Below, in pieces: positions 20,680 through 57,419 of a stretch of DNA of 64,000 nt. This stretch comes from Arenicola marina. Taxonomy: Eukaryota > Annelida > Polychaeta > Arenicolidae. Every line of letters starts with the position of its first letter. Positions within the stretch are counted from its first letter, which is position 1. The stretch is taken from positions 22,017,911-22,081,910 of the forward strand of contig OZ025256.1 of assembly GCA_964019135.1 (NCBI GenBank), in the 5' to 3' direction. The position numbers and the translations under genes were made by a program. The notes under the pieces were generated by a model, which was not told the DNA's origin, did not search any database, and saw only the letters and a list, made by a program, of their open reading frames with translations.

Positions 20680-21064
20680 GTAAGTATTGAAAGGAACATA
20701 ATGAACTCACTGGGCATGTAGCGGCGTGTTTGCTTGTGGGCTGTAGCTCGAACGTATATGGGTAAATAAGAGTAAACTCCTGGAGGTAGTACAACAGCTA
20801 AGGTAAACATTCATCAAGATAATAATGTATGTCAGGGTGCGCACAGGCATGAAAAGTGCTTGAATTTTGACTGATGCCTGGAAAAGGTCATAAAAACAGA
20901 AATGGGTCTTGAGGTCGATCCAATGTACTTGAATATGCTTCAATAGGGCAGTTACAATGATCGATTACCGCAGTGTCTAACCGTACAGTTAAACGGTTAG
21001 GCGGACTACATGCGGAAACAGCGCTAGACGCCGGCTAGTTGACTTATAAAAAAACACGAAAATC

Positions 21065-21151
21065 AGACGTTAATGTCGTGAGACAGTCTAAGGGATCGTA
21101 ATTAACGTTAATGTCGATCAATCAAACTGTCTCACGACATTAAAGTCAAAT
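21065..21151. repeat. Hairpin, 18-bp arms, at the left boundary of copy A
   Basis: TTAATGTCGTGAGACAGT (about 21070) is mirrored by ACTGTCTCACGACATTAA (about 21129) with a loop of about 40 bp. The copy-B counterpart begins three bases inside the post-gap contig. Confidence 0.8.
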
Positions 21152-21627
21152 TTTCAGGCTACAATGGCTCGTGTCGTGTCACAGACTCACTAGGGCACTG
21201 TTATACAAATCTGGTGGGGGAATTTCGCAGGTGAGAGATATTTGTGATGAACAAAATAACCCTCTGAAAATGTGCGATAAAAATACCCATTCCCGGCGGA
21301 TTTTGGCGGTAATACGCCCTGACCGGATTTGACCGGAGAAAAAAAGTGGGGGGGGGGTCGCTTTAGCTAGGGTTCACTTAAAGTGTGGCTATTTGTGAAG
21401 CATTTTGATAAATATTAAATATTCTAAAACATTATCTTTGTAAGTCCATCATAAAAGCCGAAAATAAATAGTTTAATCATCGTTATCCGATTCGGCCTGA
21501 AAACGTGGGGGAATCCGGGAATTCCGGGGAATTCGTGCCAATGACGTCACTCGAGGCACTCGTCCGGGGAAGCCCTACGTAAACCTGCCTCCGACAACGG
21601 TCTTCTCGAAACATTCACATGCATGTG

Positions 21628-21954
21628 CAGGGGCGGATCTAGGAATTTGCCGAGGGGGGGTTGCTGTCTGAAAACTTGCGACCGGAGGGCGGGGGGGGGG
21701 GGCGGGGATGTACTCTCTGGCTAAAACTTGCGACCCGGGGTGGGGGGGGGGGGTGCTCTCTTTTTGTCAAGGGGGCGGGGGGTTGCTCTCTGACTGAACT
21801 GGCGTCCGGGGGGGGGGGTGGTCTCTGGCTAAAACTTGCGACCGGGGGGGGGGGGCGCTGCTCGGAGAAGCCGACTTTAACAGTGTATGTTCAGGTTCCC
21901 AAGGGGGGGGGGGGTTGCAACCCCCCTAACCCCCCCCCCCTGGATCCGCCACTG
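21628..21954. mobile_element. G-tract MITE with CAGTGGCGGATCC ends (copy A)
   Basis: The left end CAGGGGCGGATCTAGG and right end, reverse-complemented, CAGTGGCGGATCCAGG are inverted, each running into a G-run. ATGTG flanks both sides (21623-21627, 21955-21959), a possible 5-bp target duplication. The interior is an array of units of about 50 bp: GCTCTCTGGCTAAAACTTGCG, CGACC, then a G-run. Copy B of this element (39950-40154) has lost about 120 bp of the units. Confidence 0.65.
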
Positions 21955-22505
21955 ATGTGAATTAAATAGCGACTGAATGCCAATCGGAAGAAAGGAAATT
22001 GTAAATGTGTGTTTGTATAGGGGGGGGGGGGCGGCGATGGTTAACTAAACTGGCAGATACACGGTGAGGGTGGGGCGGGGTGAGGCGGCGGCGGCGCCTT
22101 CTTATATCTACTGAGGGGGTGAACGAGAAGTGTATGCTTCTTTTTTAAGTTTTTTTTATGGCAACGAATCAATTAAGATTTTGGTTTAATTCAAGACCTA
22201 TATTCTCGAATGTTCGATATGGTATGCCGAGTCCTTTCGTACGGGACCAAATAATATCAACGGCAAAGATCTAACGTTGACGAGGATTGTCCGCGAATAC
22301 GAACACAGCATTGGGGGTCGGAGATATGTATCCGTCGCTGTTTTTCGTTGAGCGCGGAGGCCACTTTGCATGCAAAGTTTCCATCAGCCCGTTCCTTTCG
22401 GTATCCCTCCTCGCTAAGAATCGTTTTGCATGTGGAGTCACCGGAGGCTTGAGCAACTACCCACTGTACAAATGATCATAAAAACGTGGCATCTTGCGGG
22501 ATGAA

Positions 22506-22572
22506 AAGTGGCGCTGTCGTTAAGCGTTCGCCTTTTACCGGAGTGACCGGGGTTCGATCCTAGATTCCGATT
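22506..22572 (+). repeat. tRNA-derived SINE head (copy A)
   Basis: GTGGCGCTGTCGTTAAGCG (box A region) and GGGGTTCGATCC (box B, about 22559) are spaced as in a tRNA, but the acceptor stem is not complementary, so this is the head of a SINE and not a tRNA gene. Confidence 0.6.
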
Positions 22573-23000
22573 TTTGCATATCCAGTGGGGCCCGGACCAT
22601 AAATATCACACGTTTATCCACCCAGCACCTCTGTCGATATGTTCTATATTCTGAACAAAATATTACAAACATTCACACTGAAATTGTAGATCTATTAACT
22701 TGCCCAATAATCAGCGGCATCCCAGCACGGCTGCTATAGATATAAGCTTAGATTCTAAGACTTATAGAATAAACTTGGTCTACAGTCAAATACGGATTAA
22801 GCTTAGTCGGATAGCGTGGTTAAATTTTGAGAGCTGGAGCTGGGATAGGAAGTAAGCGTTGCCTTCCCGGCGGTTTTTTCGCCACTTTGACAAGTTTGGG
22901 TCACAAGTTCTGCTTCCGGGGTTTTGGTTTCCTCCTGAAAATGGGAGTGTCAAACTTTCCCTTCCGTTTTCAATAGGGGTGGGGGTCCCCTTGAATGTGT

Positions 23001-23047
23001 CACAGGCACAGTAAATCAGTGGCAGGGGGGCGCGGGGGGGGGGGGGC
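23001..23047 (+). repeat. Half of a CACAGGCACAGTAAATCAG palindromic MITE (copy A)
   Basis: CACAGGCACAGTAAATCAG followed by TGG and a G-run is identical to the arm of the complete palindromic MITE at 62003-62134. The mirrored arm is missing here. Confidence 0.6.
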
Positions 23048-23182
23048 ACAGCGAAAACAGTGTTTTGCGGAAACCCACCCCTTAATTATCAGCTTCAAAA
23101 TTCGATCTTTTCTACGTCGCATTTCCATGCAGGCCAGGTTAGTTTATTCTTTTTTTTTCGGCAAACCCACCATAGAGTTATT

Positions 23183-23494
23183 GGGGAGGGGGGGCGGGGG
23201 TGGGGGGCGTGTTCCCCGCCAGATCACGAAGAATAAATTTCTTTATTCCCAGGTAACGATGAATTCAAAGGACAACTCCCGGCATACAAACAAAGGGCGG
23301 ATACATGATACTAAATTGACGATTTCACGAATCACGGATAATTAATATTAAAATTCCCAGTTCCCGATTAATGAAAGTCCTTGATCACGGCGGTCGGTCA
23401 AAGAATTATTTTCCTCATTCCCAATTCACGGTAAAAATGAAAAGCCCATTCCCGAGGAATGGAAATACCCCTTGCGCCCCCCCCCCCCCCCCGC
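23183..23494 (-). repeat. G/C-tract-bounded repeat family, minus copy (A)
   Basis: Reverse-complemented, the text runs from a G-run through GGAATGGGCTTTTCATTTT, GAATTGGGAATGAGGAAAAT and GGAATTTTAATATTAATTA to a C-run. This matches 27722-28042 in the other orientation and the partial copy at 7180-7338. Confidence 0.6.
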
Positions 23495-23499
23495 CCTCT

Positions 23500-25550
23500 A
23501 GAGACAATGTTGCGTGCCCCCAGGATGACACCAGAACTTTCCGTTCGTCCTCAAATTTAGTGTTGGTTTACATGTAAAATATCAGTTCAGTGAGGCAGGC
23601 CTAACTCGATGAATATTTTAGTTCTAAAGGGTCATCTTGATCTTTTTTTATGAAAAATATCATCTCTGTAGGGGTATCTTTTTCATACTGGGCATCCAGG
23701 GACCCCCTCTCCCCGGAACCGCCCCTCCCACACCAGAGGGTTAAGGCCTACTCGTGTTGATATGATTCAGGGGGGAAATGTGCTTCACAGATGACAGCTT
23801 GTAAAGGGTGAATGGTCGGAGTTTCAAAGTCACAACATGGACCTTTTCCCCCAATTAAGGTTGGTCATTAGCCTCATATGATTTACCGTGCCTCATGTCG
23901 GCTAACGGTATGATCCAGATATGTTGGATAGGGGGGGGGGGAGTTTCGAAAGATGGCTTTGCTTTTGTTTTTGATATGTCAAATGGTATAAATTTCGGCT
24001 CTAAAAGGGCGGGGGGGGGGTCCCCCCCCCCCTCCCGCCCAGGCTCCGACCTTGACTAAGGCGAGGGTAGTTCTACTGTCAGAGCAAAGACCTTATCATA
24101 GCTCAAAGCTAGGGCGGGAGTAGCCCGTTCTATGTTGTAGTACCGTGCAAGTGGCAAACTCAGACAGGGCCCGCCCATCTTACAGCCATAGAACCAGGGC
24201 CAAGACTAATGCAGACGTGATTTTCTGTTATTGATCCGATCAGGGAACAAATGAACCGTGTGTCCAGTTAAATAAGAGCCCCCATTGACCAATATTTAAA
24301 CCACCATAACAAGTGAGGACAACCAGCGAACCGTTCATAATAATGCGTTTGCAGGTAAACCAACGCGATGTATGAGCAGCGTGCGGGCTGGGTGCCTCGA
24401 GTGACGTCACAAGGACTGAAACCCGCCATGTAAACAAGAGCACGTGTTTTTATCGTGCAGCGGAACAAGGCACAAGACGGCAGTTTTGAATCGAAAAAAA
24501 TAATACTTCCCCGCTTTGATAATTTTTTTGATGGACATATATGGGGAGATTAAGCATTAATCTATCAATGTCCACTGATGAATTCAGGTTTTAAATAGTA
24601 GCACCATGCACTTATAAATGTTATGCCCTTGCAGCAACTAAACCGTAGAAAAAATGCTGCACACAAAAACGGGCAGAGAAATCGTTCGTGTAAGTTAGGT
24701 CACCATCACTGGTACAAATACAATCAGAGACACTTGTTTCTTTTAGTCCTGGGTATTCCATTAGTATCTGTATCTTAATTTAGAGGGAGTTTATTTTAAT
24801 ATATATTTCATATATTCATTAGACTTAAGCTACTCATAGGGTATTGATAAATTGTATGTTATTTATTAAGCATGTACATGCATATACCAAATCCATATAG
24901 CTATATACTTAATAACTGCATGTCACACCCAGCTTAGGCAAATTCCATGCAGGGTTTTATTTGTTATTACCCATACTAATCGGCTTCCAGCATATTATTC
25001 GTATTACAGAGTTGTTAATACATGCAGGGTTTTCTTTTGGGCTGAGATTTGGTCAAACTATTGGCAATTAACCATCTAATGTTATAATTGATTGTCAGGT
25101 GAAATTGTGGCTATATTGTCAACTGTTTTATAACTAGCACATAATAATCAATATATCGTACTGGTATTATATAAAATTGTCTTACCATGTAAGCTTGTTT
25201 TCTTTTCAAAACCTCAAATTGCCGACTCAAATTTGACACATATGGTAATCAGGGCCATATGTAAATTACCCTTCAGTTAGAAAAGAGTTGAAATTTAGAT
25301 TTTCATGAAACTAATAGTTGAAAGCTGGTTGAAATCAGGAACTTTGAAATATTCGTAGTTAATAATACGTTGAAATTAAGGATTTAATAGAACCTTGGTG
25401 AACATCGCACGAGAACCCGAGCGGCATGCAGTGCGCCACCGCGAGGCAGATTGCGCAGCCGTCTAGCGGAGATTTAGTTCCAGATCATACATGCGCGAAG
25501 TTTACAAATATTGCGGAAAGGCGAACGGTTTGAGTCCTACCGCCTGTGTC
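23500..25550. other. No gene recognised
   Basis: Several G/C runs (23930, 24010) and AT-rich sequence with repeated GTTGAAA near 25285-25385. Reading frames here are short and lack motifs. The counterpart in copy B is 41700-43760. Confidence 0.4.
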
Positions 25551-25557
25551 TACCATG

Positions 25558-25579
25558 CCCCCCCCCCCCGGGGGGGGGG
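25558..25579. repeat. Self-complementary poly(C)-poly(G) tract (copy A)
   Basis: About 12 C followed directly by 10 G. The copy-B counterpart (43766-43789) has a different run length. Confidence 0.9.
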
Positions 25580-25751
25580 CACTACATAGAGTTAAGTGTA
25601 TACATATGTGCCGCCCAAATGACCCCTTTTTTCTCTCAATCCCCCAAAAACAGAAATGTACAATTCCTCTCGATGTGCCCATCTGAGACGGACCTTTTTC
25701 TCAATATATAGTCCAGTTGATATCGAACTTGTGCAAATAATTAACCTCCAG

Positions 25752-25932
25752 ACACTTTGTCGTAAATGTCAGTGCCTATTTTCGATGCTTTTTTTAACCG
25801 CAAATTTCTGTCATTGTCTGTTATAGATGCCTTTTTAAACACAAATGTCTGTCCTAGTCTATTTTAGATGCATTTTTAACCACAAATTTCTGTCAGTGTC
25901 TATTTTCGATGCATTTTTAACGAACAAATGTT
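25752..25932. repeat. 45-bp tandem repeat, left of the integrase gene (copy A)
   Basis: About four units of the form AACCACAAATTTCTGTCA, GTCTATTTTAGATGC, TTTTT. The same unit recurs in the same orientation at 34858-34990, on the other side of the integrase exons, suggesting both sets belong to one element. Confidence 0.75.
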
Positions 25933-26082
25933 CTCTCAATGACCACAAAATCGCGCACTGTTCTCACTCTCCAAATGTCTATGGCATGGGCGGCATGGGC
26001 GGTACACCCCCACCACCGTAGTAATGTACAGTCTCCCCCCCCCCCCCACCCCACGGACCATGGCTCGGCGTTAACGCGTGTC

Positions 26083-26215
26083 CGCTTGTCCGGTGTGACG
26101 TTGGATAATGCATCCCGTGGAAAATGCACCCCCTACCACAGCGCGTGCGCAGCAGCGCTTCGCGCATGCCCAATACCATCCGCTCCCAGTTCCCATGAGA
26201 TTTTGCACCCCCTGA
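26083..26215. repeat. Left GCACCCC subterminal units of the integrase element (copy A)
   Basis: Contains GTGGAAAATGCACCCC (about 26118) and CATGAGATTTTGCACCCC (about 26194). Related units lie in reverse orientation at 37455-37560 (GGGGTGCAAAATCTCACG). They also lie in direct orientation in the array at 35015-37070. This left set is 80 bp upstream of the first integrase-gene segment. Confidence 0.5.
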
Positions 26216-26296
26216 TCCAGTGGATCATTTGCAGTATCAGGAGCGCGCGTGGCACGTACAACCAGACTACCGAGATAGATTTACAATTGCCTAAAG

Positions 26297-26460
26297 ATGG
26301 AAGAAAGCGACAAGTGGGAAAAGTGGGAACGAAAGTTTCAGGATATTTATTTTTTCCTTAAAAATAAACAATATCCGGCTGGTTGCTCTAACAAGGCACA
26401 GAAAGGCAGTCTATGAAGACGCGCAGGGAACGTTGAACTGTCGGATCTGCTAGAATCAGG
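26297..26460 (+). other. N-terminal segment of the integrase gene (copy A)
   Basis: Encodes KWERKFQDIYFFLKNKQYPA followed by GCSNKAQK, the 'I..FL..G.YP.G....K' wording that opens integrase-derived proteins of the Ginger/KRBA2 type. It lies just inside the left GCACCCC units. The fragment is short, so the assignment rests partly on position. Confidence 0.4.
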
Positions 26461-26699
26461 TTGGTACAAACGCATTCGTTGCTGCCGCACATACCATATA
26501 TAAGCTAGCTATATCGCTAGTATTTACTTGAATGCGTTCATGAATTATATTTACAGATCTGTACCTGTAATTCTGGACATCCGATTTAAAATAAAAACTG
26601 CATTATTATAATAAAATAAAGCCAAATATGATATAGCGGTTCTTCACGACAATGCTAATTTAATTTTCATTTAAATTCCAAACATCAGATTATTCTTTA

Positions 26700-27345
26700 G
26701 TCTGGAGATTTATTACGTCAGTCGCACGTCTATATATATATTTGGAAAAGTATAAGTGCGCGCCGGTGTATCAAAAAAAAAATATATATATATTAATTTA
26801 TATAAATATATACATGTATATACATATATATCATCGGAAGTAGAAGCCCGATAAAACACGCTGTAGTATTTTGTTGATCTTAAAATAATGAAGTGAATGC
26901 ACCATAAGTGTAATATCGACCCATATATATATATATATATATATATAGCAGCCACTACATGCGCTGAATGGTCTCGTAGCATGGTTTAATGCGTGTATGC
27001 AATCAAGAACAGTCGGCAATGACTAGTAATTAAGAAATGATTGTCGGTCTCAACCGAGTCTGGCTATTTATTATATCAGCCGCGCCTCTATATATATTTT
27101 TGAAAACTAACCTGGCCTAACCAAAAAAAGTATATATATATAGGAAGTCGAAGTCCGCTAAAACACGCTATAGTATTTTGTTGATTCTAAAATAATGAAG
27201 AGAAATTGCACCATATGTGTGTAATATCGACCCCCATATAGCCACTGGCTGGCCCAGTAGCATATGACGTAATGCGTGTATATGCAAGCAACAAGTGTCA
27301 GCAATGTAGCAAGGAAAGATTGTCCATATTGTTACGATGGGGGCC
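26700..27345. repeat. Diverged tandem duplication of about 300-350 bp with (AT)n (copy A)
   Basis: 26700-27050 and 27060-27345 share, in order, a TATATATATTT stretch, GGAAGT(A/C)GAAG, TAAAACACGCT, TAGTATTTTGTTGAT, TAATATCGACCC and AATGCGTGTAT. (AT)n tracts near 26783 and 26923 give repeat-derived reading frames that are not genes. Copy B: 44900-45540. Confidence 0.8.
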
Positions 27346-27721
27346 AAATGGAACGTAATTCCTTTGTTTGAAATTTGAAAAGAGATCGTCATACAAACGA
27401 AATATTGTGGCGAATGAACATTCAATCTATGAAACCATTATTTCGGTTGTAGGCCAATGTGAAGATTTAAGATTAAATGCCCATCCTGTTGATAACGCAT
27501 AGCTTTACTCTTTGTTTCAAGTCTTCTCATTGCGTAACTTCGGACGTATGATGGGGTTGAAAGGCGACCCCGCTCGTGTAATAACGCATGTCTGTCCCCA
27601 TGCAGTTGGTCTGGCACACCTTAACAATAAAATAATCTGCGTGCAGCCCTGTATACCTCGTGTAGCCTCATGTAGGCTTCAAACATAGTTGTATAAAGAG
27701 AATTACGAGCACGATATCAAT

Positions 27722-28042
27722 GGGGGGGAAGGGGGGGGGGGGGCAAGGGTTATTATCAGTCCCTCGGCAATGGGCTTTTCATTTCATTATGAATTGGGAA
27801 CGAAGAAAATAATTCTTCGTGAACTGAGAAAGAGACATTAGCCGATCATCGTGATCAATGATTTCCGCTAGTCGTGCACTTGGAATTATAATATTAAATA
27901 ACCGTGCATCGAGAAATCGCCAATTTATATAATGTATCTGCGCTTTCTTTTGTATGCGGAGATTTCTCCTCTTAGTTCATCGTGATCTGGGAATAAAGAA
28001 ATTTATTCATCGTTATCTGCGAACACGACCCCCCCCCCCCCT
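27722..28042 (+). repeat. G/C-tract-bounded repeat family, plus copy (A)
   Basis: Begins with a G-run, passes through GGCAATGGGCTTTTCATTTC, GAATTGGGAACGAAGAAAAT and GGAATTATAATATTAAATAA, and ends in a C-run. It is the inverse of 23183-23494. The G- and C-runs act as the termini of the unit. Copy B: 45990-46301. Confidence 0.65.
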
Positions 28043-28723
28043 TGACCCCCCTTCCCTCCCGCTTAATTATTACAGCAAAGACACTGCACGAATAATACGT
28101 TAGATACACAAACAAAACCGTTCCTATCACATTCTCTAACTTACATTATTATTACAATATTTTTTGGCTTGGAACTTGAAAGTTTTGACTATATCAAGCC
28201 AGATAGTCCGGCCATTTAGCTCACTAACTTTGATTTCGATACTGCCGAGGCGGTTCGCTACAGCTATAAATACGTATATTGAATGAGTGGCATCGGAATA
28301 CAATGGTCAAAACTTGGCTGACTTGCGGCAGCGGTCGAAATTGTTTGTTTAGTTACATGAGCAACCCGTAATCCGCTGCTAATTTCAGCTAATCGTTTCC
28401 GCGCCGAACTGATTGATTGACTTAGAGATACATAACGTTTCATTTTATTTTTGAAAGATAACAGTCAACGTTTTCTAGCAGCGAAATGTCATCGGTTCTT
28501 ATTTAGTCAGTCGGTAAACCTGATGACCATGTTTGGGAATAAAGCCTTTTATAAAATTGGCTTACAGCCCATCACTAGGATATAATTATATTCTAATGTG
28601 GCCATGTTTGCCAGAGGTATGTTTGGCTGTGAACTCTCGAAGCAAAATCTTTTGTTCGTTTTATTTTCATCGTTTTTTTACCAATTCCCTGAATATGTTT
28701 TAATGCGATCGTTTCTATTTTAG

Positions 28724-28932
28724 AAAATGCGACTACGACTGCTTATCAGCATCTAATCCACACATCAAATGGCAAAAGGACTGAGGTCCTGAAGAGATAA
28801 GAGGAGTGTCTGGCAGTGTTCAGCGAGTTTCATGGCAGTAAAATTGGTGGACATAGTGGCATCAATAAAAATGCGGATGCCATATGTCAGCGATTTTACT
28901 CGCCGGGCCAGACCGACGACATCCGGATATGT
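28724..28932 (+). other. Integrase H2C2 zinc-binding segment, first part (copy A)
   Basis: Encodes EFHGSKIGGHSGINKNADAI followed by CQRFYSPG, the HHCC-type integrase zinc-binding module (H...GGHSGI.KT...I..RFYWPG). The exon-like borders are TTTTAG at 28723 and GTAAAT at 28933. Same segment in copy B: 46984-47192. Confidence 0.7.
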
Positions 28933-29209
28933 GTAAATTTCGAAAACACCGTTCGCCCTATAACATTTTTTGGGCTAGTTTTTGTCAAAGATTTGTTTGG
29001 GAGTGCGTAGTTGTGCGGAAAATTAACGTAAGGTGCATGGATTCGGTTATTGCTTATATTTGTCTGTGAAAGCGCATTACTTATAATATATGAAATTGTC
29101 AATATAATTTAGCAACGGAATAATATTTATTATTAATTCGTGGAACATTGATACATTTCTCTCTTTTAATTCTAATATCATTTTTATGCTTTCTGCCTTG
29201 TTCACAAAG

Positions 29210-29278
29210 ATCGCGACATGTGACAAGTGTCAGAGGGTAGGACCCCTCGAGAAGAAGGAACCGCTGCAGTCAATCAAG
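29210..29278 (+). other. Integrase zinc-binding segment, Cys pair (copy A)
   Basis: Encodes IATCDKCQRVGPLEKKEPL; the CDKCQR pair is the expected completion of the H2C2 module. A pyrimidine-rich tract precedes the acceptor-like CAAAG at 29209. Copy B: 47470-47538. Confidence 0.65.
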
Positions 29279-30371
29279 GTTCGCTAGACATTATTCGCTA
29301 TACAAATAACCTTATATCACGTAAATTTGCGGATACTTAAAAATAATAAATTTCTGCTTGGCGGAACATTGGCAGTAGCAAAATTACCTCCGACATCTAC
29401 TGTCCGCAAACTTAGATACATCAAACAATTAAATTCTGTCAATTAATAATGATTGTTGCCTATTGACTCGCAGTGCCTATAAGTTTTCGTTTAAAGACGC
29501 GTTTGTTAGTCGCCGGACCGATATGTTCGGTTTGCAGGGTTATACTGGGGACGACTGGAGGGCCCGGAAAGTGGGTGGCAGGCGGATTAAGAAATCAGAT
29601 AAGCTGACCGTGGCCAAGTGTCATGCATTAAGCTGCTTAAAACTCGTGCTACGGCAAATACAATAACAGAGAAACTAGTAGCACCAAGGGGCAAGATACT
29701 TTATTTAACAAGCTCTATCAATTACACCCTTTACTGCATGTTTCTATTGTTTCATCAGAGTCGTGTTGTGCCGCAGCAGGAGGCCATTATTTTACCAGAG
29801 CGGGTCATTATCTTTCCGTCACAACAATGACCCACCCAAGAAAATAATAACTCGATACTTACCTATTACCTGTGTCAACCTGTGTTGTACCAGTGTTCTT
29901 CATACACCTCACATCATTGACAAATGTTACTACGTGCAATACACTAAAATTATCCATGAATAACTATGGATTCACGGAAGAATATTTGTCAATAAACAGT
30001 ATACGGGCCTACACAACATATGTCGCCTGCTATGTAATACGCGATATTGTTTCATTCGAATTCTGCATTTCGCCTACAAGGGCGGATATATAGGCATTTT
30101 AAAATGGGGGTGGGGGGGGATCTCTGCTCTCTGAAACCTTGCGACCGGGAGTGTCGGGGGGGGGGGGGGCAGGGAGTAAAAAAGAATAACGCGGCCGTGG
30201 GTGTCCACTAATGATCTTAACATCCCCTTGCTTGATGGGGGGGAGGGAGACATCTACGAAAACGAGACTTGCTCCACTTCCCAAGAGGTACGTTGGGGGT
30301 AAGTAAAACTCCCCTACCCCCACCACCCCCTCACTCGCCCGAGATCCACCCGTGCCCGTATAAACGCTTAT

Positions 30372-30445
30372 TGCAAAGGATTCGAACCCAGGAGCTATTG
30401 ATCTGCAGTCTAGTGCGCTAATTAAGGACTACACCAGGAAGGCCC
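30372..30445 (-). repeat. tRNA-derived SINE head, minus strand (copy A)
   Basis: On the minus strand TGGTGTAGTCCTTAATTAGC (box A region) is followed by CTGGGTTCGAATCC (box B). It shares AGACTGCAGATCAATAG with the fragment at 5376-5430. Copy B: 48589-48662. Confidence 0.6.
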
Positions 30446-30481
30446 CTCATACAAATTTGTAAATATTTGTAAACTTATACC

Positions 30482-30814
30482 ATGTTAGACCGCCTAGAAA
30501 TCCACGTCTTTGTTCGATCTTCCCCGAATTTCGATAATCCTATCCTATATCATCATCAATTATCGACAGACGAAAATCGTCTTCCGCGGCGAGTGAAATA
30601 TCGTAATATTGTGCTAAATTCAAACCTTGAGACAAAACATGTGTCATTTCTTAACTTAGGCAGGGGAAAGCTAAGTTGCTCGCACGGTAGGAGGACATTT
30701 AGTAATTGTTCCCTGGTTGTAAATAATAGTGCAACCATTAGTTACACATGCATACATACTGGAAACACACCCACTGGCAGATTAATTCACTGTCGATTCC
30801 TTTCACACAATTGA
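30482..30814 (+). other. Unidentified 110-residue reading frame (copy A)
   Basis: The frame is open and the same length in both copies (B: 48698-49030) and has three cysteines near its end, but it shows no known motif and no splice or promoter context. Because the copies are nearly identical, its conservation says little. It lies inside an intron-like interval of the integrase gene and is probably not a gene. Confidence 0.15.
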
Positions 30815-31199
30815 ACGTGCCAAAACGTTCACTACACACGATCTTCACACCTCGCGCTTTTTGTCGCTCATGGAAGATAAAATTAAAGTAATTGTAACTA
30901 AATGCTAGCCAACAGATGCAGAATCACTCAGTTACTGCTATATATGATGTGACATGATATCCGAAAATAAACGTGAAATACGGTATGGTTGTTGGCCATT
31001 TAAACAGAAATTAGCATTTCGTATTATTCGAGGATAAATGTGAATTAATGTTTAATTCTTTTTACACAACATTTCTATGACTGCTATGTCTCATAAAACA
31101 TTATTACAGAATGGAGATAAATCGAGTGTAAATTGTCTAATCATAACACGCCCTTTGTTTATCAAATAAAAACATGTACATCCCCTCTTCTGTTAATAG

Positions 31200-31433
31200 G
31201 TAGCTGGCCCATGGGAAATGCTAGGCGTCGACCTCGTGGGACCCCTGGTAACCACGACGGCTGGAAATAAGTACATCTTTACAGCGACTGATTACTATAA
31301 AAAGTGGGTGGAAGCGTTTCCACTGAAAGATAAAACTGCAGAATCAGTTGCTTCGTGCCTGATGGAAATTTTCTACCGTCACCGGGCTTCACATTGCATA
31401 TTAACAGATCAAGGAAGGGAATTTGTGAACAAG
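31200..31433 (+). other. Integrase core (rve) segment with two catalytic Asp (copy A)
   Basis: Encodes MLGVDLVGPLVTTTAGNKYI, YYKKWVEAFPLKDKTAESVA and CILTDQGREFVNK. The Asp of GVDLVGP and the Asp of TDQGREF are the first two residues of the DDE triad, with the usual spacing. It is bounded by a pyrimidine-rich AATAG acceptor (31199) and a GTAAGT donor (31434). The Glu-bearing second half is not seen downstream. Copy B: 49416-49654. Confidence 0.8.
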
Positions 31434-31629
31434 GTAAGTGAAATAAATCCTAGGTTTAGCCGCGAGATGATGATATGTTTCCACCGCACCACAACAATAT
31501 AGGAGCTAACCCCTTTCTACGCGAAAATGAGCGTTGTTTGCAAATGCAGCCGTTAGATTGGGACATCGCATATTAGATGTCCATGTGGCCATAACTCACC
31601 GAACGTCATGACCAGACATGGGGTAATCT

Positions 31630-31755
31630 TAATCAGTAATCGTAATCGATTGTAATCGATTACATTTTCCAAATAATCGTAATCGATTACACTGTTTTTA
31701 AAAGCAATATAATCGTAATCGATTACATTGCTAATGTAATCGTAATCATTATGAC
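31630..31755. repeat. TAATCGATTAC tandem repeat (copy A)
   Basis: Four to five repeats of AATCGTAATCGATTACA with short spacers. TAATCGATTA is itself palindromic. A (TG)n run follows at 31800-31824. Copy B: 49850-49975 and 50022-50048. Confidence 0.85.
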
Positions 31756-33398: not shown

Positions 33399-33469
33399 AG
33401 AACGTTGGCGCGTTCTGCAGGGGATGCCATCGCAAAGATGCAACACCGCCGACAACCGCTGGCTCGTGG
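33399..33469 (+). other. PHD finger, first half (copy A)
   Basis: Encodes FCRGCHRKDATPPTTAGSW: the first C-x2-C of a PHD finger. Bounded by TTTGCAG (33398) and GTGAGT (33470). Copy B: 51623-51693. Confidence 0.6.
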
Positions 33470-33805
33470 GTGAGTTAATGTTGAGTAGCTGTGTATGTGT
33501 AGGTCAAATTTACCTTTGGAGGCATTCGTTACACACTCCGGCAGAGAGTGTCGCCCTAAATATGCCACCTTGTTTATTCAATATTGTCACTTGATCCACC
33601 AAGAATATAGTTTACAACGACCTCTATACACAAAACATGCACCACACTCAGCAGATTGGTTTGAATGATATAGCCCAATAGAATTCGCTCATCAATCTTT
33701 CTGTGAAGCAAGTAATACAGCTCCCATTTTCTCGCCAGAACTTTCCGTATTTAATAAACATTAGGTTAGTCACTAGATTAGGGCCCCTGAGGGGGAGGGG
33801 GGGGG

Positions 33806-34714: not shown

Positions 34715-34857
34715 GCATGAATGCATCTACCCACCCTGTCTTGTATGGCACGCCGTTTGAAACTTTTTCTGAAAACAGTTATTTTCACTGTCTACTTTTC
34801 ATTTTGCTTGCCTAAACCATCGTTCGTCTCAGGTAAAATTAATTCTGCTTGCCAATT

Positions 34858-44496: not shown

Positions 44497-47400
44497 ACGG
44501 AAGAAAGCGACAAGTGGGAAAAGTGGGAACGAAAGTTTCAGGATATTTATTTTTTCCTTAAAAATAAACAATATCCGGCTGGTTGCTCTAACAAGGCACA
44601 GAAAGGCAGTCTATAAAGACGCGCAGGGAACGTTGAACTGTCGGATCGGCTAGAATCAGGTTGGTACAAAGGCATTCGTTGCTGCCGCACATACCATATA
44701 TAAGCTAGCTATATCGCTAGTATTTACTTGAATGCGTTCATGAATTATATTTACAGATCTGTACCTGTAATTCTGGACATCCGATTTAAAATAAAAACTG
44801 CATTATAATAAAATAAAGCCAAATATGATATAGCGGTTCTTCACGACAATGCTAATTTAATTTTCATTTAAATTCCAAACATCAGATTATTCTTTAGTCT
44901 GGTGATTTATTACGTCAGTCGCACGTCTATATATATATTTGGAAAAGTATAAGTGCGCGCCGGTGTATCAAAAAAAAATATATATATATTAATTTATATA
45001 AATATATACATGTATATACATATATATCATCGGAAGTAGAAGCCCGATAAAACACGCTGTAGTATTTTGTTGATCTTAAAATAATGAAGTGAATGCACCA
45101 TAAGTGTAATATCGACCCATATATATATATATATATATATATAGCAGCCACTACATGCGCTGAATGGTCTCGTAGCATGGTTTAATGCGTGTATGCAATC
45201 AAGAACAGTCGGCAATGACTAGTAATTGAGAAATGATTGTCGGTCTCAACCGAGTCTGGCTATTTATTATATCAGCCGCGCCTCTATATATATTTTGGAA
45301 AACTAACCTGGCCTAACAAAAAAAAGTATATATATATAGGAAGTCGAAGTCCGCTAAAACACGCTATAGTATTTTGTTGATTCTAAAATAATGAAGAGAA
45401 ATTGCACCATATGTGTGTAATATCGACCCCCATATAGCCACTGGCTGGCCCAGTAGCATATGACGTAATGCGTGTATATGCAAGCAACAAGTGTCAGCAA
45501 TGTAGCAAGGAAAGATTGTCCATATTGTTACGATGGGGGCCAAATGGAACGTGATTCCTTTGTTTGAAATTTGAAAAGAGATCGTCATACAAACGAAATA
45601 TTGTGGCGAATGAACATTCAATCTATGAAACCATTATTTCGGTTGTAGGCCAATGTGAAGATTTAAGATTAAATGGCCCATCCTGTTGATAACGCATAGC
45701 TTTACTCTTTGTTTCAAGTCTTCTCATTGCGTAACTTGGGACGTATGATGGGGTTGAAAGGCGACCCCGCTCGTGTAATAACGCATGTCTGTCCCCAGTT
45801 GGTCTGCCACATGTGTTACGTACCCAAAAAACCGTCTGTAGCCAGCCACTATGGAGTAAGTCTTTGGAGTCTTATCTCATTAGAGAGCTTGAAAATAAAA
45901 TAATGTGCCTGCAGCCCTGTATACCTCATGTAGCCTCATGTAGGCTTCAAACATAGTTGTATAAAGAGAATTACGAGCACGATATCAATGGGGGGGAGGG
46001 GGGGGGGGGGGTAAGGATTATTATCATTCCCTCGGCAATGGGCTTTTCATTTCATTATGAATTGGGAACGAAGAAAATAATTGTTCGGGAACTGAGAATG
46101 AGATATTAGCCGACCATCGTGATCAATGATTTCCGTTAGTCGTACACTTGGAATCATAATATTAAATAACCGTGCATCGAGAAATCGCCAATTTATATAA
46201 TGTATCTGCGCTTTCTTTGTATGCGGAGATTTCTCCTCTTAGTTCATCGTGATGTGGTAATTAAGAAATTTAGTCATCGTTATCTGCGAACACGACCCCC
46301 CTTGAGCCCCCTTTCCTCCCGCTTAATTATTACAGCGAAGACACTGCACGAATAATACGTTGGATACATAAACAAAACCGTTCCTATCACATTCTCTAAC
46401 TTACATTATTATTACAATATTTTTTGGCTTGAAACTTGAAAATTTTGACTATATCAAGCCAGATAGTCCGGCCATTTAGCTCACTAACTTTGATTTCGAT
46501 ACTGCCGAGGCAGTTCGCTACAGCTATAAATACGTATATTGAATGAGTGGCATCGGAATACAATGGTCAAACCTTGGCTGACTTGCGGCAGCGGTCGAAA
46601 TTGTTTGTTTAGTTACATGAGCAACCCGTAATCCGCTGCTAATTTCAGCTAATCGTTTCCGCGCCGAACTGATTGATTGACTTAGAGATACACAACGTTT
46701 CATTTTATTTTTGAAAGATAACAGTCAACGTTTTCTAGAAGCGAAATGTCATCGGTTCTTATTTAGTCAGTCGGTAAACCTGATGACCATGTTTGGGAAT
46801 AAAGCCTTTTATAAAATTGGCTTACAGCACATCACTAGGATATAATTATATTCTAATGTGGCCATGTTTGCCAGAGGTATGTTTGGCTGTGAACTCTCGA
46901 AGCAAAATCTTTTGTTCATTTTATTTTCATCGTTTTTTTACCAATTCCCTGGATATGTTTTAATGCGATCGTTTCTATTTTAGAAAATGCGACTACGACT
47001 GCTTATCAGCATCTAATCCACACATCAAGTGGCAAAAGGACTGAGGTCCTGAAGAGATAAGAGGAGTGTCTGGCAGTGTTCAGCGAGTTTCATAGCAGTA
47101 AAATTGGTGGACATAGTGGCATCAATAAAAATGCGGATGCCATATGTCAGCGATTTTACTCGCCGGGCCAGACCGACGACATCCGGATATGTGTAAATTT
47201 CGAAAACACCGTTCGCCCTATAACATTTTTTGGGCTAGTTTTTGTCAAAGATTTGTTTGGGAGTGCGTAGTTGTGCGGAAAATTAACGTAAGGTGCATGG
47301 ATTCGGTTATTGCTTATATGTGTCTGAGAAAGCGCATTACTTATAATATATGAAATTGTCAATATAATTTAGCAACGGAATAATATTTATTATTAATTCG

Positions 47401-50400
47401 TGGAACATTGATACATTTCTCTCTTTTAATTCTAATATCATTTTTATGCTTTCTGCCTTGTTCACAAAGATCGCGACATGTGACAAGTGTCAGAGGGTAG
47501 GACCCCTCGAGAAGAAGGAACCGCTGCAGTCAATCAAGGTTCGCTAGACATTATTCGCTATACAAATAACTTTATATCACGTAAATTTGCGGATACTTAA
47601 AAATAATAAATTTCTGCTTGGCGGAACATTGGCAGTAGCAAAATTACCTCCGACATCTACTGTCCGCAAACTTAGATACATCAAACAATTAAATTCTGTC
47701 AATTAATGATGATTGTTGCCTATTGACTCGCAGTGCCTATAAGTTTTCGTTTAAAGACGCGTTTGTTAGTCGCCGGACCGATATGTTCGGTTTGCAGGGT
47801 TATACTGGGGAACGACTGGAGGGCCCGGAAAGTGGGTGGCAGGCGGATTAAGAAATCAGATAAGCTGACCGTGGCCAAGTGTCATGCATTAAGCTGCTTA
47901 AAACTCTTGCTACGGCAAATACAATAACAGAGAAACTAGTAGCACCAAGGGGCAAGATACTTTTTTTAACAAGCTCTATCAATTACACCCTTTACTGCAT
48001 GCTTCTATTGTTTCATCAGAGTCGTGTTGTGCCGCAGCAGGAGGCCATTATTTTACCAGAGCGGGTCATTATCTTTCCGTCACAACAATGACCTGTGTTG
48101 TACCAGTGTTCTTCATACACCAACATCATTGACAAATGTTACTACGTGCAATACACCAAAATTATCCATGAATAACTATGGATTCACGGAAGAATATTTG
48201 TCAATAAACAGTATACGGGCCTACACAACATATGTCGCCTGCTATGTAATACGCGATATTGTTTCATTCGAATTCTGCATTTCGCCTACAAGGGCGGATA
48301 TATAGGCATTATAAAATGGGGGTGGGGGGGGGGGGGATCTCTCCTCTCTGAAACCTTGCGACCGGGAGTGTCGGGGGGGGGGCAGGGAGTAAAAAAGAAT
48401 AACGCGGCCGTGGGTGTCCACTAATGTACTTAACATCCCCTTGCTTGATGGGGGGGGGGAGACATCTACGAAAACGAGACTTGCTCCACTTCCCAAGAGG
48501 TACGTTGGTGGTAAGTGAAACTCCCCTACCCCCCCCCCCCCCCCCCTCACTCGCCCGAGATCCACCCGTGCCCGTATAAACGCTTATTGCAAAGGATTCG
48601 AACCCAGGAGCTATTGATCTGCAGTCTAGTGCGCTAATTAAGGACTACACCAGGAAGGCCCCTCATACAAATTTGTAAATATTTGTAAACTTATACCATG
48701 TTAGACCGCCTAGAAATCCACGTCTTTCTTCGATCTTCCCCGAATTCCGATAATCCTATCCTATATCATCATCAATTAGCGACAGACGAAAATCGTCTTC
48801 CGCGGCGAGTGAAATATCGTAATATTGTGCTAAATTCAAACCTTGAGACAAAACATGTGTCATTTCTTAACTTAGGCAGGGGAAAGCTAAGTTGCTCGCA
48901 CGGTAGGAGGACATTTAGTAATTGTTCCCTGGTTGTAAATAATAGTGCAACCATTAGTTACACATGCATACATACTGGAAACACACCCACTGGCAGATTA
49001 ATTCACTGTCGATTCCTTTCACACAATTAAACGTGCCAAAACGTTCACTACACACGATCTTCACACCTCGCGGTTTTTGTCGCTCATGGAAGATAAAATT
49101 AAAGTAATTGTAACTAAATGCTAGCCAACAGATGCAGAATCACTCAGTTACTGCTATATATGATGTGACATGATATCCGAAAATAAACGTGAAATACGGT
49201 ATGGTTGTTGGCCATTTAAACAGAAATAAGCATTTCATATTATTCGAGGATAAATGTGAATTAATGTTTAATTCTTTTTACACAACATTTCTATGACTGC
49301 TATGTCTCATAAAACATTATTACAGAATGAAGATAAATCGAGTGTAAATTGTCTAATCATAACACGCCCTTTGTTTATCAAATAAAAACATGTACATCCC
49401 CTCTTCTGTTAATAGGTAGCTGGCCCATGGGAAATGCTAGGCGTCGACCTCGTGGGACCCCTGGTAACCACGACGGCTGGAAATAAGTACATCTTTACAG
49501 CGGCTGATTACTATAAAAAGTGGGTGGAAGCGTTTCCACTGAAAGATAAAACTGCAGAATCTGCAAAGTTGCTTCGTGCCTGATGGAAATTTTCTACCGT
49601 CACCGGGCTTCACATTGCATATTAACAGATCAAGGAAGGGAATTTGTGAACAAGGTAAGTGAAATAAATCCTAGGTTTAGCCGCGAGATGATGATATGTT
49701 TCCACTGCACCACAACAATATAGGAGCTAACCCCTTTCTACGCGAAAATGAGCGTTGTTTGCAAATGCAGCCGTTAGATTGGGACATCGCATATTAGATG
49801 TCCATGTGGCCATAACTCACCGAACGTCAGGACCAGACATGGGGTAATCTTAATCAGTAATCGTAATCGATTGTAATCGATTACATTTTCCAAATAATCG
49901 TAATCGATTACACTGTTTTTAAAAGCAATATAATCGTAATCGATTACATTGCTAATGTAATCGTAATCATTATGACGTAAAATCTTCGATTTTACGGCAT
50001 CTATCACTTCGTTCGTTGGTCTGTGTGTGTGTGTGTGTGTGTGTGTGTCCGCTCTGTAGGTTGCAAAACGCAACATTTTGTTCTGTAACTTTACCCATCG
50101 CTAAGTAATCGACATATCTCGGTCAAGTTCGTTAGCGGGGTATGTACGTCAAAGGTCAAGGTCACATAAATTTTTTGTTTGTTCCTTAACCATTGGTAGA
50201 TAGGACCAAAAATCGGGAAAGTCGCTATAACGTTCACAGTGTTCATTTAATGACGCTGTACATTAGGTTACGTATTGAGCCCGTCGGTAACTTGTATCAC
50301 GTCTTTGAATTTTGCAAATCGCCTAATTAGTTTGTCTGCAAAAAATTGCTAAACTTTAACATAGGACCCTACGAGAGCTATTAACTATTAAGAACAACTG

Positions 50401-52932
50401 GTCCATCTCTATCGCCTGGTGACCTGTCAGGGACCCCACACCTCGGCATCCCTTATATATAATTACAAAGCCCCGACGGGGTGATGGGATAATTAAAGTT
50501 GCATGTCGAGTTCTTTCCCGCCAAAACTAAGCCCAGGCAAATTTTATATCAAAGTTTGCAGAAAACTCGATTGTTTCATTCTATAAACTCAGAAACCTGA
50601 TAAACATCGCCGTTTCGGCTGTGGTGTGGCAAACGTGTCTATTCCGGGACACCACAGATTTCTGTCGCGGCACTGCTACTTATACCAAAACATCGCGAAG
50701 CACACAAACTGATCACGTTTACCACTAAAATGAAAATTTGTGGTAAATTGATATCACGGGCAAGGCTAAGAGACACTATTTGGCAGTCTGGCATGGGTGA
50801 AGTATAGACCATTATTATTTTACTGATTATTATTTGTATTTTGACCGCTTTAGTTTCGACGGGAAAGAGCTCGACATGCAACTTTAAGTTGACTGTCGCG
50901 AGTGGTGACAGCGACCGCGGTGCCAGTGTAGGCATACTGTTGTTGGGGGCGGGGCGGGGGAGGGGGGTGGGGTTCAAGCTGGGGTGGTGGGATGATTCAG
51001 TTGGTTGCTATGAAACTAATGTGCATGGTAGGGATGTAGAAACTAGAAATGTAGACCGAAAGTAAATAAACGGGCAGTTCGGTTTTAGCTGTCCCCCGAG
51101 TGAGATCGTTGAGCCTGGGAGAAACTAAAGAATGATTTTACTTTTGGGATGGGGCCAACAATTGAGAGGATGCTCACTATAGCGACAGTTTTAGAGCTGC
51201 CGGATCTGAGTGGTCAATCTGGATCTAAGGTGTCAATTAAATCTGGATCTGATGGGCCAAATACGTCACAAATGAAGTCACAGTCAAGTCAATTGTCAAG
51301 GTCAAGGTCACTGTTACAGTAGTGGACCGAAGACATAATCCGGATTTTACATTTTACGTCATTCTCAATCTCGCTTATCAATATTAATACTATTAAATGA
51401 CTGTCTTGAATGCGGATTATACGACTTATGAATAAAGGCAGACCTTGCATATGTATGGTATATGATTATGCAGGGAACAGATATATTCTACCTATAATAA
51501 TACTCCGCAGCTGTCGATCTGTCATCAAGATCCACCTACCGGCGAGATATTGCACGTCCTTTTTGTTTCAGTATTAATAAATCGTGTTAACTGACTTGGT
51601 GCTGACCACCAATTATTTGCAGAGAACGTTGGCGCGTTCTGCAGGGGATGCCATCGCAAAGATGCAACACCGCCGACAACCGCTGGCTCGTGGGTGAGTT
51701 AATGTTGAGTAGCTGTGTATGTGTAGGTCAAATTTACCTTTGGAGGCATTCGTTACACACTCCGGCAGAGAGTGTCGCCCTAAATATGCCACCTTGTTTA
51801 TTCAATATTGTCACTTGATCCACCAAGAATATAGTTTACAACGACCTCTATACACAAAACATGCACCACACTCAGCAGATTGGTTTGAATGATATATTCG
51901 CTCATCAATCTTTCTGTGAAGCAAGTAATACAGCTCCCATTTTCTCGCCAGAACTTTCCGTATTTAATAAACATTAGGTTAGTCACTAGATTAGGGCCCC
52001 TGAGGGGGAGGGGGGGGGGGGGGGTAGCCATGTCGCGTGTCGATTTTAAGAAAAGGTCTGCTTCGCGTGTCGATTTTATAAAAGGTCCGTGTCGCGTGTC
52101 GATTTTAAGAAAAGATCCGTGTCGCGTGTCGATTTCAAGACAACCACAATGCCGCGTTGTCGATTTTAAAAATCGCCGTGTCACCGTGTCGAAAAAGCCA
52201 CTCTGGACCTCTTAGATTATATTGCAGTTCAGCCTGGCCTATTACGAACAGACGAAAAATAAATGTCGTGCCACACGGGTTTCTGCAGACAGTGCCCCAG
52301 CAAATGGTTCTTGAATTGGACAACTAAACTTGTTGTTTATACCTCGGGACTACTATATCAGCTTAATATCACGAATATTATAATTGCGCCGTACATCGTT
52401 TCAGATCAAATGCGTCCAGTGCATACGCTGGTTCTACGCAAGGTGCCTGGACAGCCCACAACCAGGTTTCTTGTGCTTAAACTGCGATCAAGCGAATCAT
52501 CCAGTGGCGCCCGGCGGGCAATGCCCAGCACCCCCACCATCCCACAACCGCAAGCACGAGGGGGAAACAAGCGGTGGAAGGCGTCTCAACCGGGCCAAGC
52601 CCCAGCCCGTGACATCGTCCTCGACCTACACCGTCACTAAACTCAGCAAACGGGTCAAACGGTGTCAGGGCTGCAAGAGCGGATTCCAGGCACATGAGGT
52701 TGACGATACCCTTGTAGTGAGGAGATACGAGAACAAACCCTTCTGCATGCGCAGCAAGGCTCTTGGCTACCACCACCACTCCTGGAGGCATTACTACTTC
52801 CACCATGATTGGAACTGAGTGAAGGCCGTTAACTCAGAGGCCGAGAGTAGTGCGGTGGTCCTCATGGATGGGTTGTACCTCACAGAGTCGCAGAAGGTGT
52901 TACTTGCCAGCAAAAGAGTTCACGCTATCTGA
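44497..52932 (+). mobile_element. Fossil integrase-PHD gene of a Ginger-like element (copy B)
   Basis: Collinear with copy A (26297-34714): N-terminal segment from 44497, H2C2 segments 46984-47192 and 47470-47538, integrase core 49416-49654, PHD halves 51623-51693 and from 52405, Cys/His tail to 52932. The splice-like borders match copy A. This copy appears more damaged than copy A, with a few additional interruptions. If the two blocks are haplotypes this is the other allele and not a second element. Confidence 0.6.
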
Positions 52933-53312
52933 GCATGAATGCATCTACCCACCCTGTCTTGTATGGCACGCCGTTTGAAACTTTTTCTGAAAACAGTTAT
53001 TTTCACTGTCTACTTTTCATTTTGCTTGCCTAAACCATCGTTCGTCTCAGGTAAAATTAATTCTGCTTGCCAATTCTATTTTAAATGCCTATTTAACGAC
53101 ACATTTCTGTCAATGTCTATTTTAGATGGCTATTGAACCACAAATTTTGGTCAATGTCTATTGTATATGTCTTTTTAACCAACAATATCTGTCAGTGTCC
53201 ATTTTTAACGCGCGGTGGGTGGGGGGGGGGGGGGATAATGAATCTCATGGATACTGCTTCTCCTGTGAGAATTTGCACCCCCTACCGATATCTTAGCGAG
53301 AGGGCTACCGTA

Positions 53313-54339
53313 TGCTAGTTCGCCCCCGGCGTAAGTCCGGCCACCTCGATTATGATGTTATTCGGTTAAGTAATGGTGGACCAGCTGACTGCAGCAGGTC
53401 ACGTGATTCGTTCTGCGCATGCACGGAGAAAAGAGGGGCTGTCTGTTAAACTATCTCGCGACTAGAAGCAAATACATGAAATCAAACTGCGTTAGTAAAT
53501 TTTTTGCTCATAGATTTTGTTTAATTTGCTATATATGCGGTGTAAACAAAAATTATTATATATATATATATCATTCAAAAGTACAGGCAATCCCGTATTT
53601 AGTGACATTTAGTTCACCCCTGTAATCAGTTTAGGTTTTGTGCGAAACGAAGTCAAAATTAAAATTACTCGTGGGGCAAGTTGGCCCTCCGACGATGGGG
53701 CACGTTTGCCTTGTGTAGTTTGTGTGGCGATTTCAGCGAGAAAGGCAGAATCTCGGTGTAGTGGACTGCCCTTGATTGATTTTTTATTATGCCGTTCACT
53801 TTAGGAATATGGAAGTCTATAAACTTCGTCTTCTTACTTCGTCTTTGTCAAATGTTTTTTTCTACTCGATTTCCTGTTCGCCTTGTGTAGTTTGTGTGGA
53901 GACTCCAGCGAGAAAGGTGAAATCTGTGTGTAACACTGCCCTTGACTGATTTTTTATTATGCCATTCACTTTAGGAATATGGAAGTCTATAAACTTCTTC
54001 TTACTTCCTCTTTGTGAAATGTTTTTTCTACTCGATTTCCTGGAATTAAATATTTTTCGGGCCAAAGGAGCATTTTTTAGCAGCGTTGTTCTTGCCGGGG
54101 CGAACTTGCCCCATTAAGGGGGCGAACTTGATCCGACTCGAGGCACGTTCGCCACTTTTACCTTAGTGTCTTTGGTGTTAAATTATGTTGTTGGTAAACA
54201 ATCCACAACTGTAAAATAATGCCAGTGTCTTAGCCGAGATATGTACATATTATATCAGACGTAACATGGCTTCCTAGCTAGGAAATAATGGCCTAAAGAT
54301 CAATTTTAGTGAAAACTGGCCGAACTAGCCCCGGTCTCC
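53313..54339. mobile_element. pogo-like non-autonomous element (copy B)
   Basis: Counterpart of 35092-36113 at the same array position, including the internal duplication of about 170 bp. Confidence 0.6.
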
Positions 54340-54403
54340 TCCCTGCTTCTCCTGTGAGAATTTGCACCCCCTACCGATATCTTAGTGACATGGCTACCGT
54401 ATG

Positions 54404-54854
54404 TGAGAACCCAAAACGTCTGACTGCCCAAAATGGGCCAGGATCAAGACTTTCACACCTATAACATAATGCACAGTTAGACCCCAGATTTGTTTCGTAC
54501 CCTCGTAATCTCGCAATAAATATTGTTTTAATGGGTAGATCTAGTTCCGGAGGGTGTGACAAGTCCTATAACGAGCAAAGAGGCCAAGCCTGTAAAGTAT
54601 TGCTAACGCTTTTTTCCGTGCCTTTTTACGCACCGTTCCCATACTGAAGCTCACACGTCCGCCCCCGCCCTTTCATCCCCAACTTCTAATAAGACCTCAA
54701 TATTATTCGTATATCGCTAACTAAGAGCTACAAAACGAGCGTATCGTGGCTTTATATATGCAGATTGTGTAGGAGCCCAACGTCAAATGTAACTGTTAGT
54801 TTGTTCCTAGGTATGTAGGACGTTTTGGGCAGTCGGACGTTTTGGGCCCCAACA
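54404..54854. mobile_element. MITE with 8-bp target duplication ACCGTATG (copy B)
   Basis: Counterpart of 36179-36677. Flanking ACCGTATG at 54396-54403 and 54855-54862. About 50 bp of interior present in copy A is absent. Confidence 0.8.
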
Positions 54855-57419
54855 ACCGTATGCTATATATCGCAGGGGGGTACCGAATCTCATGGATACT
54901 GCTTCTCCTATGAGAATGTGCACCCCCCACCTATACCTTAGAGCCAGGGCTACCGTACGCTATATATCGCAGGGGGAGGGGGTACCGAATCTCATGGATA
55001 TTGCTTCTCCTGTTGAAATTTGCACCCCTACCGATTTAGGACTTGCTTAGTTACACGACTTGCTTGAATTCACAGGGTACCTACACGGACTGCTAAAATA
55101 TAGCCAGACAAATGGTGTACAATTTCCAACGTTCCACGACTTGTGTTATTGTAAATTATGTTTTTGGGGTATCACACCTTGTATTATAACATTTGCATGA
55201 TTTTATAAAAATAATAAAATAAAATAAAATAATCGTAATAATCCCCATCCGCCATTGTTTTATGGGAGCGAAATCACGTTTCGATACTGGACAATTTTGG
55301 AATGTGGCAAGATAAACCGGCCGGTGTAACATTTCCATTAATCTAAAAGGTGGGAATAAATAGTTGAATGTTTTGCCATATATGTATATTTGTCATTAAT
55401 ATTGGAATGGTCCGCCATAGATGCTTTTCTGGCGAGGGGTACACAATCTCACGGGGGTGCACTATCTCATGGCACGGTAACATCATAATGCGTCCCCGGG
55501 GTGCAAAATCTCACGGGGGTGCAGAATCGCATGCCACACCGGGACAAATAATTTTACCCGTCGGATAACACTTCCTTGTACTTGTCCGACAGGACAGGTG
55601 CTTGCCGGACAAGTACAAATTGCATGTTTCAAACTATTTTGTCGGCTTTAGCTGATTCCCCGTACGAAAAAATATACGAATTTCAACTGTATAACTTCAG
55701 TTGAAAGTTGAAAGCTAGTTAGATTTCAGTTACGCCTTAGCTAAAGAATTGATCATGCGAATTAGTTAGTTTCAACTTCCCAAATAGAAAGTTGTATACA
55801 TAATTCCAGGTTTTTCTGAATATGGATAAGAAGTTAACACAGCATAATAATCATCAGTATTTATTATACTATTATTTCTTATTTATTACTTTATTTCATA
55901 AACAAAATGGCGTGATAGATATATCGATCAACGTTCAGCCATGGCCGAGTGACAGTGGCAGAATTCTTATAATTAAGTATACAACATCCATAAAGATATA
56001 AACATCGAGAAAACATCGAGATATATGTTCAAAGATACGTATGAATAAACACTGAAGCGTCAGTCACAAAAATAGAAAGGAGCCAAAAACTTCAATATCT
56101 GAATTATGCTACACTACAATTCAGTAAAACACAAGTAGTAGTAGCAGCTATGTGGACACAGAAGTAGACAGCTTACGAACAAGGAAATTATATATTCTAT
56201 ACATTTCAAATTCTCTTCAAAGATATTTTCACTAACATTACCATTTCTTTGCATTATACACTTTGCGACAAATCAGTGTCGCGGCATAAACCATTTTCAC
56301 TTACATGAGAGAATATACGTTTTGCCAACAAGTATAATATGGTTAATAAAAACCATAAACGATAATTACAGCAGTTTCTTATAGCAAACGATATTGTTGG
56401 TGTTGATAAAGTTTTAATAAATACTTTTTTGCTAGTCTCAAAACCGGGAGTCCCAAAAACGCTTAACAAACGGACAATAATAAAAGATGTTCATGCAATA
56501 GTCTCAACCTGTTAAGTTACAATTTGATAAGTAGGAATTTATTGGGATACATTATTGGAAAAAGTAAAAAAATGTACAAAGTTAATGTAAATGCCACACT
56601 TTTTCTGAAAACCTGGCCAACCAAACATATGATGTTATTATTATATATTATATGATGTATAACTTGGTTCTGCGGCCACATATACCTGCATAGCCCTACT
56701 TGTATGAAGCTTGTCACATGAATATAACTTTTGCCTTTTTGACAGCGCATCTTGCTTATTATAACGATTTGCCACCTTTATATAACCTAATTGGTAAGCT
56801 ATTTAATTACTAAAGAATCATCGCTATGCTGGAATAAAATGTCAATAGTATCCTACAATGGTAGAAAAGGTCCCAATTCATAACATGTATGGTAAACTAC
56901 ACAATTGTACATACTATTATTTATCATTTAAACTATGGAAGTGATGGTTTTGTTACAATTGTGACAACTTTTCTAACCTAGTTTCACAACTGTTACGATA
57001 TGGCATGAGTGACATGAATGAGTGCGTTATGACAGAATGATAATGATAACTGGGTCAGATGATTTAGGTAGGGTCAAGGGGTCAAGAGTGAAAGGTTACG
57101 TCAGAGTAGTGTGACGAGAAAGAATGAGAGCAGATGAGCCGGCCGGCGTTGGATGCCTTTACATGTGATAAATTGTGAATGCAGATTATACATGAATAAA
57201 AGCAAGTATCAAAAGAACAACCACGATCGATATAAATTGTTTTGGTATTGTTTAAATATGCACCAACGTACATTATATATCTATAGGCGCGTCATTGTCA
57301 GGTTGAGACAGACCAACGAAGCCCTGAACTCCTGTACGATGGCCGGTATCCCAGAGAGGTTACCGGAAAGGCCCAGCGTCCGAGAGGTCACTACGAGTGC
57401 CCCCTCGTCCTCCCCTCAC

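Follow-up and report, generated by a model that had tools for sequence, protein, structure and literature searches.

A block of about 18 kb in the Arenicola marina assembly lies twice in direct orientation, on either side of a scaffold gap, and a third time, inverted and without a gap, about 0.75 Mb away. The two neighbouring copies, A and B, are probably overlapping alleles of one locus, a leftover heterotype false duplication, and copy C is apparently a true inverted segmental duplication. The stretch analysed, hereafter the window, is 64,000 nucleotides long (C9:22017911-22081910) and comes from an assembly that totals 867,369,267 bases over 762 sequences.

The sole run of N within the window is 200 long (39190-39389). 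Copy A (21061-39189, 18,129 bp, plus strand) forms the right end of contig 1 and its last base abuts this gap, while copy B (39390-57166, 17,777 bp, plus strand) is the left start of contig 2 and opens with the first base after it. When the window was compared with itself, six main collinear direct matches tiled copy A onto copy B with identities of 95.2-98.2%, gaps counted: 21061-21698 with 39390-40019, 21777-27618 with 39976-45811, 27620-29832 with 45888-48093, 29878-36265 with 48091-54491, 36305-36860 with 54482-55035, and 36878-39189 with 54855-57166. This likeness is far above chance expectation and confirms the original prediction of an ~18-kb block present twice, both in its coordinates and in the exact meeting of the copies at the gap. 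We take the 200 N to be a scaffolder's placeholder without a measured length. The same number is the gap size used by YaHS, which may be the tool behind this scaffold.

Probes taken from the left edge, the middle and the right edge of the block each found A, B and C among the matches listed, all on C9. Besides A and B, the first 1,000 bases of the block have a 99% copy at C9:22842912-22843914 (minus strand), and the middle probe matches copy C at 97%. The right-edge probe, which meets copy A only as far as the gap, matches at 99% across all 1,401 of its bases at C9:22810939-22812339 (minus strand). The other listed matches, some of them on unplaced contigs, span the probes only partly, in the manner of dispersed repeats. 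We aligned 200 kb of C9 (C9:22760001-22960000) to the window, keeping matches of at least 300 bp, and found that C9:22810658-22851377, on the minus strand, matches window 13588-58181; it contains the block once, is free of gaps and carries a large insertion. The block had been taken to be counted twice; it occurs three times among the listed matches of the three probes.

The single block of copy C links the left flank of A to the right flank of B. The 60 bases to its left are those found left of A, and the 60 to its right agree with those right of B at all but one position. Both flanks had been described as unique sequence, and both recur beside copy C. The left flank of A (13588-21060, plus strand), to the right of which the contig of B begins, matches C9:22843915-22851377 (minus strand) with 33 differences in 7,458 compared bases (0.44%). 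The right flank of B (57167-58181, plus strand), to the left of which the contig of A ends, matches C9:22810658-22811672 (minus strand) with 21 differences in 1,015 bases (2.07%). The repeated unit measures ~26.5 kb in copy C with the insertion excluded (7.46 + 18.04 + 1.02 kb). To the left of window 13588 copy C passes into a many-copy element (at least 30 copies), and to the right of 58181 only short pieces match it; at the settings used, no match that begins outside the unit, at window positions 1-13587 or beyond 58181, exceeds 261 aligned bases within C9:22760001-22960000.

Copy C is long, more than 90% alike, in a separate place, opposite in orientation and different in its outer flanks, as is expected of an inverted segmental duplication. 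We infer that it is a real second locus, probably arisen by a recent segmental duplication on the same chromosome-scale scaffold; its likeness to A and B may reflect this recent origin or gene conversion. A reading of copy C as the other haplotype of the window, misplaced, was rejected because the parts of the window outside the unit (1-13587 and 58182-64000) find nothing but short and largely diverged matches in the 200 kb around it; that copy C sits in at least 184 kb of gapless sequence also counters this reading.

The insertion in copy C (C9:22817174-22831361, 14.2 kb) lies opposite window 33640-33654 and is absent from A and B. Its inverted terminal repeats total ~1.4 kb (283 bp at 98.6% and 1,126 bp at 99.7%), and CTCAGC is probably its 6-bp target duplication. 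A nested LTR retrotransposon, with 740-bp direct repeats (97.2%) and a frame containing a CCHC knuckle, splits the left terminal repeat; outside this nested element, no stop-to-stop frame longer than 92 aa was found among the frames listed for the insertion. The terminal repeat has at least 43 listed matches, and by our reading at least nine sets of two among them face each other 11-17 kb apart.

A three-way alignment of A, B and C (18,289 columns) gave 205 substitutions in 17,635 positions between A and B (1.16%, 61 indels), 170 in 17,988 between A and C (0.95%, 39 indels) and 175 in 17,567 between B and C (1.00%, 56 indels). Among 266 sites with one odd copy, A is odd at 95, B at 107 and C at 64, and 2 further sites differ in all three. 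With the 14.2-kb insertion of C left out beforehand, the indel events by odd copy number 25 for A, 45 for B and 22 for C, and among the 10 indel pieces of at least 10 bp, with the same insertion left out, the odd copy is B in 8 cases, C in 2 and A in 0. Copy B is thus slightly set off from the other two, and A is closest to C; the left flanks of A and C, too, differ by only 0.44%. Such near-equal divergences would be in keeping with three versions drawn from one population. The closeness of A to C is not predicted by the simplest allele model, with C as an older paralog, and counts against it; it can be reconciled with allelic A and B if an A-like haplotype was the recent source of C or has exchanged sequence with it. 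Two unplaced contigs examined as a control for allelic divergence gave, in C182, one piece 94-95% alike to C3 and a second piece without a full-length partner and, in C364, a piece that is a local tandem repeat; neither contig yielded an established allelic pair.

The odd-copy sites seem to cluster along the block. For the raw sites the observed clustering was reached in 0 of 5,000 shuffles and for the 231 sites away from gaps in 2 of 10,000, and after thinning to 30 bp (157 sites) it was reached in 535 of 10,000. The odd-copy pattern likewise shifts along the block (chi-square 20.3 with 8 degrees of freedom, p 0.009, for segments picked after looking). These values hint that the three copies have a mosaic history, with a signal that is marginal once the sites are thinned.

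The arrangement in the window would be explained as follows if A and B are alleles. Contig 1, from one haplotype, would enter from the left and stop inside the block, and contig 2, from the other haplotype, would begin earlier in the block and leave to the right. The assembler would have left the two haplotypes unmerged, purging would have left their overlap untrimmed, and the scaffolder would then have placed the contigs in series with 200 N between them. At the locus itself the left flank would be followed by one block and then by the right flank, and the ~26.5-kb unit would be present again as the inverted copy C, carrying a 14.2-kb transposon that A and B lack.

The order of left flank, one block and right flank in copy C favours contigs 1 and 2 as overlapping alleles, and since copy C joins both flanks without a gap, a unit with a single block does occur in this assembly. 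Allelic overlap requires exactly the geometry seen at the gap. The duplicated pair lies on one scaffold with 200 N directly separating A from B, and PMC9516828 gives a gap between near-identical neighbours as a mark of heterotype false duplications; in the assemblies compared there, gaps between copies marked false and not true duplicates. These published marks derive from other kinds of assembly, in vertebrates, which we count against the overlap reading. In PMC7203741, heterozygous overlaps kept among primary contigs are described as a hindrance to scaffolding in outbred species, and the YaHS paper (PMC9848053) advises that haplotypic duplications be removed prior to scaffolding. The neighbouring gap (C9:22944191-22944390) lies between tandem arrays, and a comparison of 15.6 kb on its right with 184 kb on its left showed no overlap. 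As far as this one gap goes, the pattern of A and B is therefore no general property of gaps here.

The original prediction had argued from geometry alone, holding that a block meeting exactly at a gap is not what a random tandem duplication would give. This argument fails, since in copy C the ~26.5-kb unit reaches beyond the block at either end. With a unit of that size, a true tandem segmental duplication could produce the same meeting at the gap: two ~26.5-kb units would stand side by side, and the gap would hide the lost end of the first and start of the second, together at least 8.5 kb. With contig 1 ending in one unit and contig 2 starting earlier in another, both contig ends fall inside unit copies and the shared block is bounded by them by construction, so that this boundary is also expected from a larger tandem unit. 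The predicted haplotype overlap still stands as the best explanation, on the different grounds that a single block joins both flanks in copy C and that a gap between near-identical copies is a published mark of false duplication; the geometry first offered for it is no proof, being forced under allelic overlap and possible under a tandem duplication that has lost at least 8.5 kb.

We consider two real tandem units unlikely. Three near-equidistant copies would also suit a burst of duplication, and other local duplications are present in the region: copies of window 57394-59483 lie at C9:22148776-22150862 and C9:21395239-21397331, and window 31741-32400 has a 97% match at C9:22118107-22118752. 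Tandem units would, on the other hand, demand an extra duplication together with the loss of precisely the two telltale parts. A junction of unit end to unit start, the direct sign of tandem units, is found nowhere in the window, and the gap occupies its expected place and could hide one. No further close copy of either flank appears among the matches listed. For the left-flank probe the full-length matches listed besides itself are copy C at 99% and a copy on C5 at 95% only; for the right-edge probe, copy C alone matches at full length at 99%, and the matches listed elsewhere reach at most 93% to part of the flank, those at 93% falling in two further places on C9. The comparison in PMC9516828 also ties gaps between copies to false duplicates.

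It is improbable that contigs 1 and 2 come from two different unit-bearing loci and were placed together by the scaffolder owing to their shared sequence. At least one further locus, copy C, does carry the unit, and the right flank of contig 2 beyond 58181 is common to two other C9 places at 98%, but copy C holds the left flank of A and the right flank of B on one unit. Contact-based joining, if used for this scaffold, normally draws on far more than 18 kb, which speaks against such a misjoin. We give very little credence to an individual heterozygous for a segregating inversion of ~0.75 Mb with inverted units at its ends (A/B versus C), whose haplotypes would diverge beyond the unit and so break the assembly, the gap being a breakpoint footprint and exchange keeping the copies about equally alike: A/B and C are indeed long (~26.5 kb), ~99% alike, opposite in orientation and 0.75 Mb apart, and the odd-copy pattern varies along the block (chi-square 20.3, p 0.009, segments chosen post hoc), but the mosaic signal is weak once thinned to 30 bp (535/10,000 shuffles) and no contig with the inverted pairing of flanks appeared among the matches of our probes.

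Both contigs end at distinctive sequence. The left edge of the block holds an imperfect palindrome of 98 bp (21058-21155) with arms of 49 nt, 82% complementary and without a spacer; a scan of the window for arms of 45 nt with 80% complementarity and a spacer of 0-4 found no other. Contig 2 begins 3 bases inside the counterpart of this palindrome (39390-39480), a coincidence that suggests reads ending there. Contig 1 ends inside the copy A counterpart of a high-copy dispersed repeat (56991-57214, plus strand) that has at least 34 matches elsewhere at 95-97%. At least eight pairs of its matches lie ~4.5 kb apart in the same orientation, and the repeat is probably LTR-like, judging from this spacing. 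The palindrome and the high-copy repeat may have helped the contigs to stop where they do.

Window 57394-59483 and its two C9 counterparts make up a local family of duplicated stretches. The part from 58182 to 59483 recurs at ~98% in both other places. Toward 57394 the divergence from both is 6-11% in 4 of 5 bins of 131 bases, and from ~58,050 onward it is below 2.5% in most bins. This drop, close to the end of the match to copy C (58181), looks as if it could be a boundary of recombination or conversion. In the left flank, window 16200-17600 has a full-length 95% match at C5:1299708-1301108, so this piece is itself repeated or has been copied.

Two long tandem arrays with different 32-bp units, C9:22872146-22896280 (~24 kb) and C9:22779853-22793421 (13.6 kb), lie near copy C, as do many other satellite arrays. 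The window itself has minisatellites at 4746-5085 (22-bp unit) and 60270-60573 (4-bp unit of GGTC type), both of which give long open frames of repetitive sequence on either strand and in more than one frame; these are unlikely to be genes. No Pfam family was found for the 8 open frames tested of the 32 listed (three inside A or B, five in the flanks), and a search of solved structures with one of these frames found none. Scans of the window for Rfam families at gathering scores and for tRNAs with the bacterial-code setting were empty.

If A and B are alleles, their overlap inflates the local counts of repeats and duplications, and merging the two would drop one false copy, which is of value for curation. 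The case also carries a caution for raw assemblies: a block with its end exactly at a gap is evidence of allelic overlap only where no copy of the repeated unit elsewhere in the genome reaches past the block. Inverted duplicated units predispose to inversion and sequence exchange, and copy C, if real, gives this part of the scaffold such an architecture.

Apart from the inverted copy C, the duplication of A and B is ordinary. The two copies are adjacent, in the same orientation, ~98% alike, separated by a gap and situated at contig ends, as in the heterotype false duplication or heterozygous overlap between primary contigs (VGP terms; purge_dups) of published accounts; the difference here is a third, gap-free, inverted copy elsewhere. 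That copy is in turn the same in kind as an inverted intrachromosomal segmental duplication, with a unit of ~26.5 kb, ~99% alike, on the minus strand of the same scaffold and ~0.75 Mb away.
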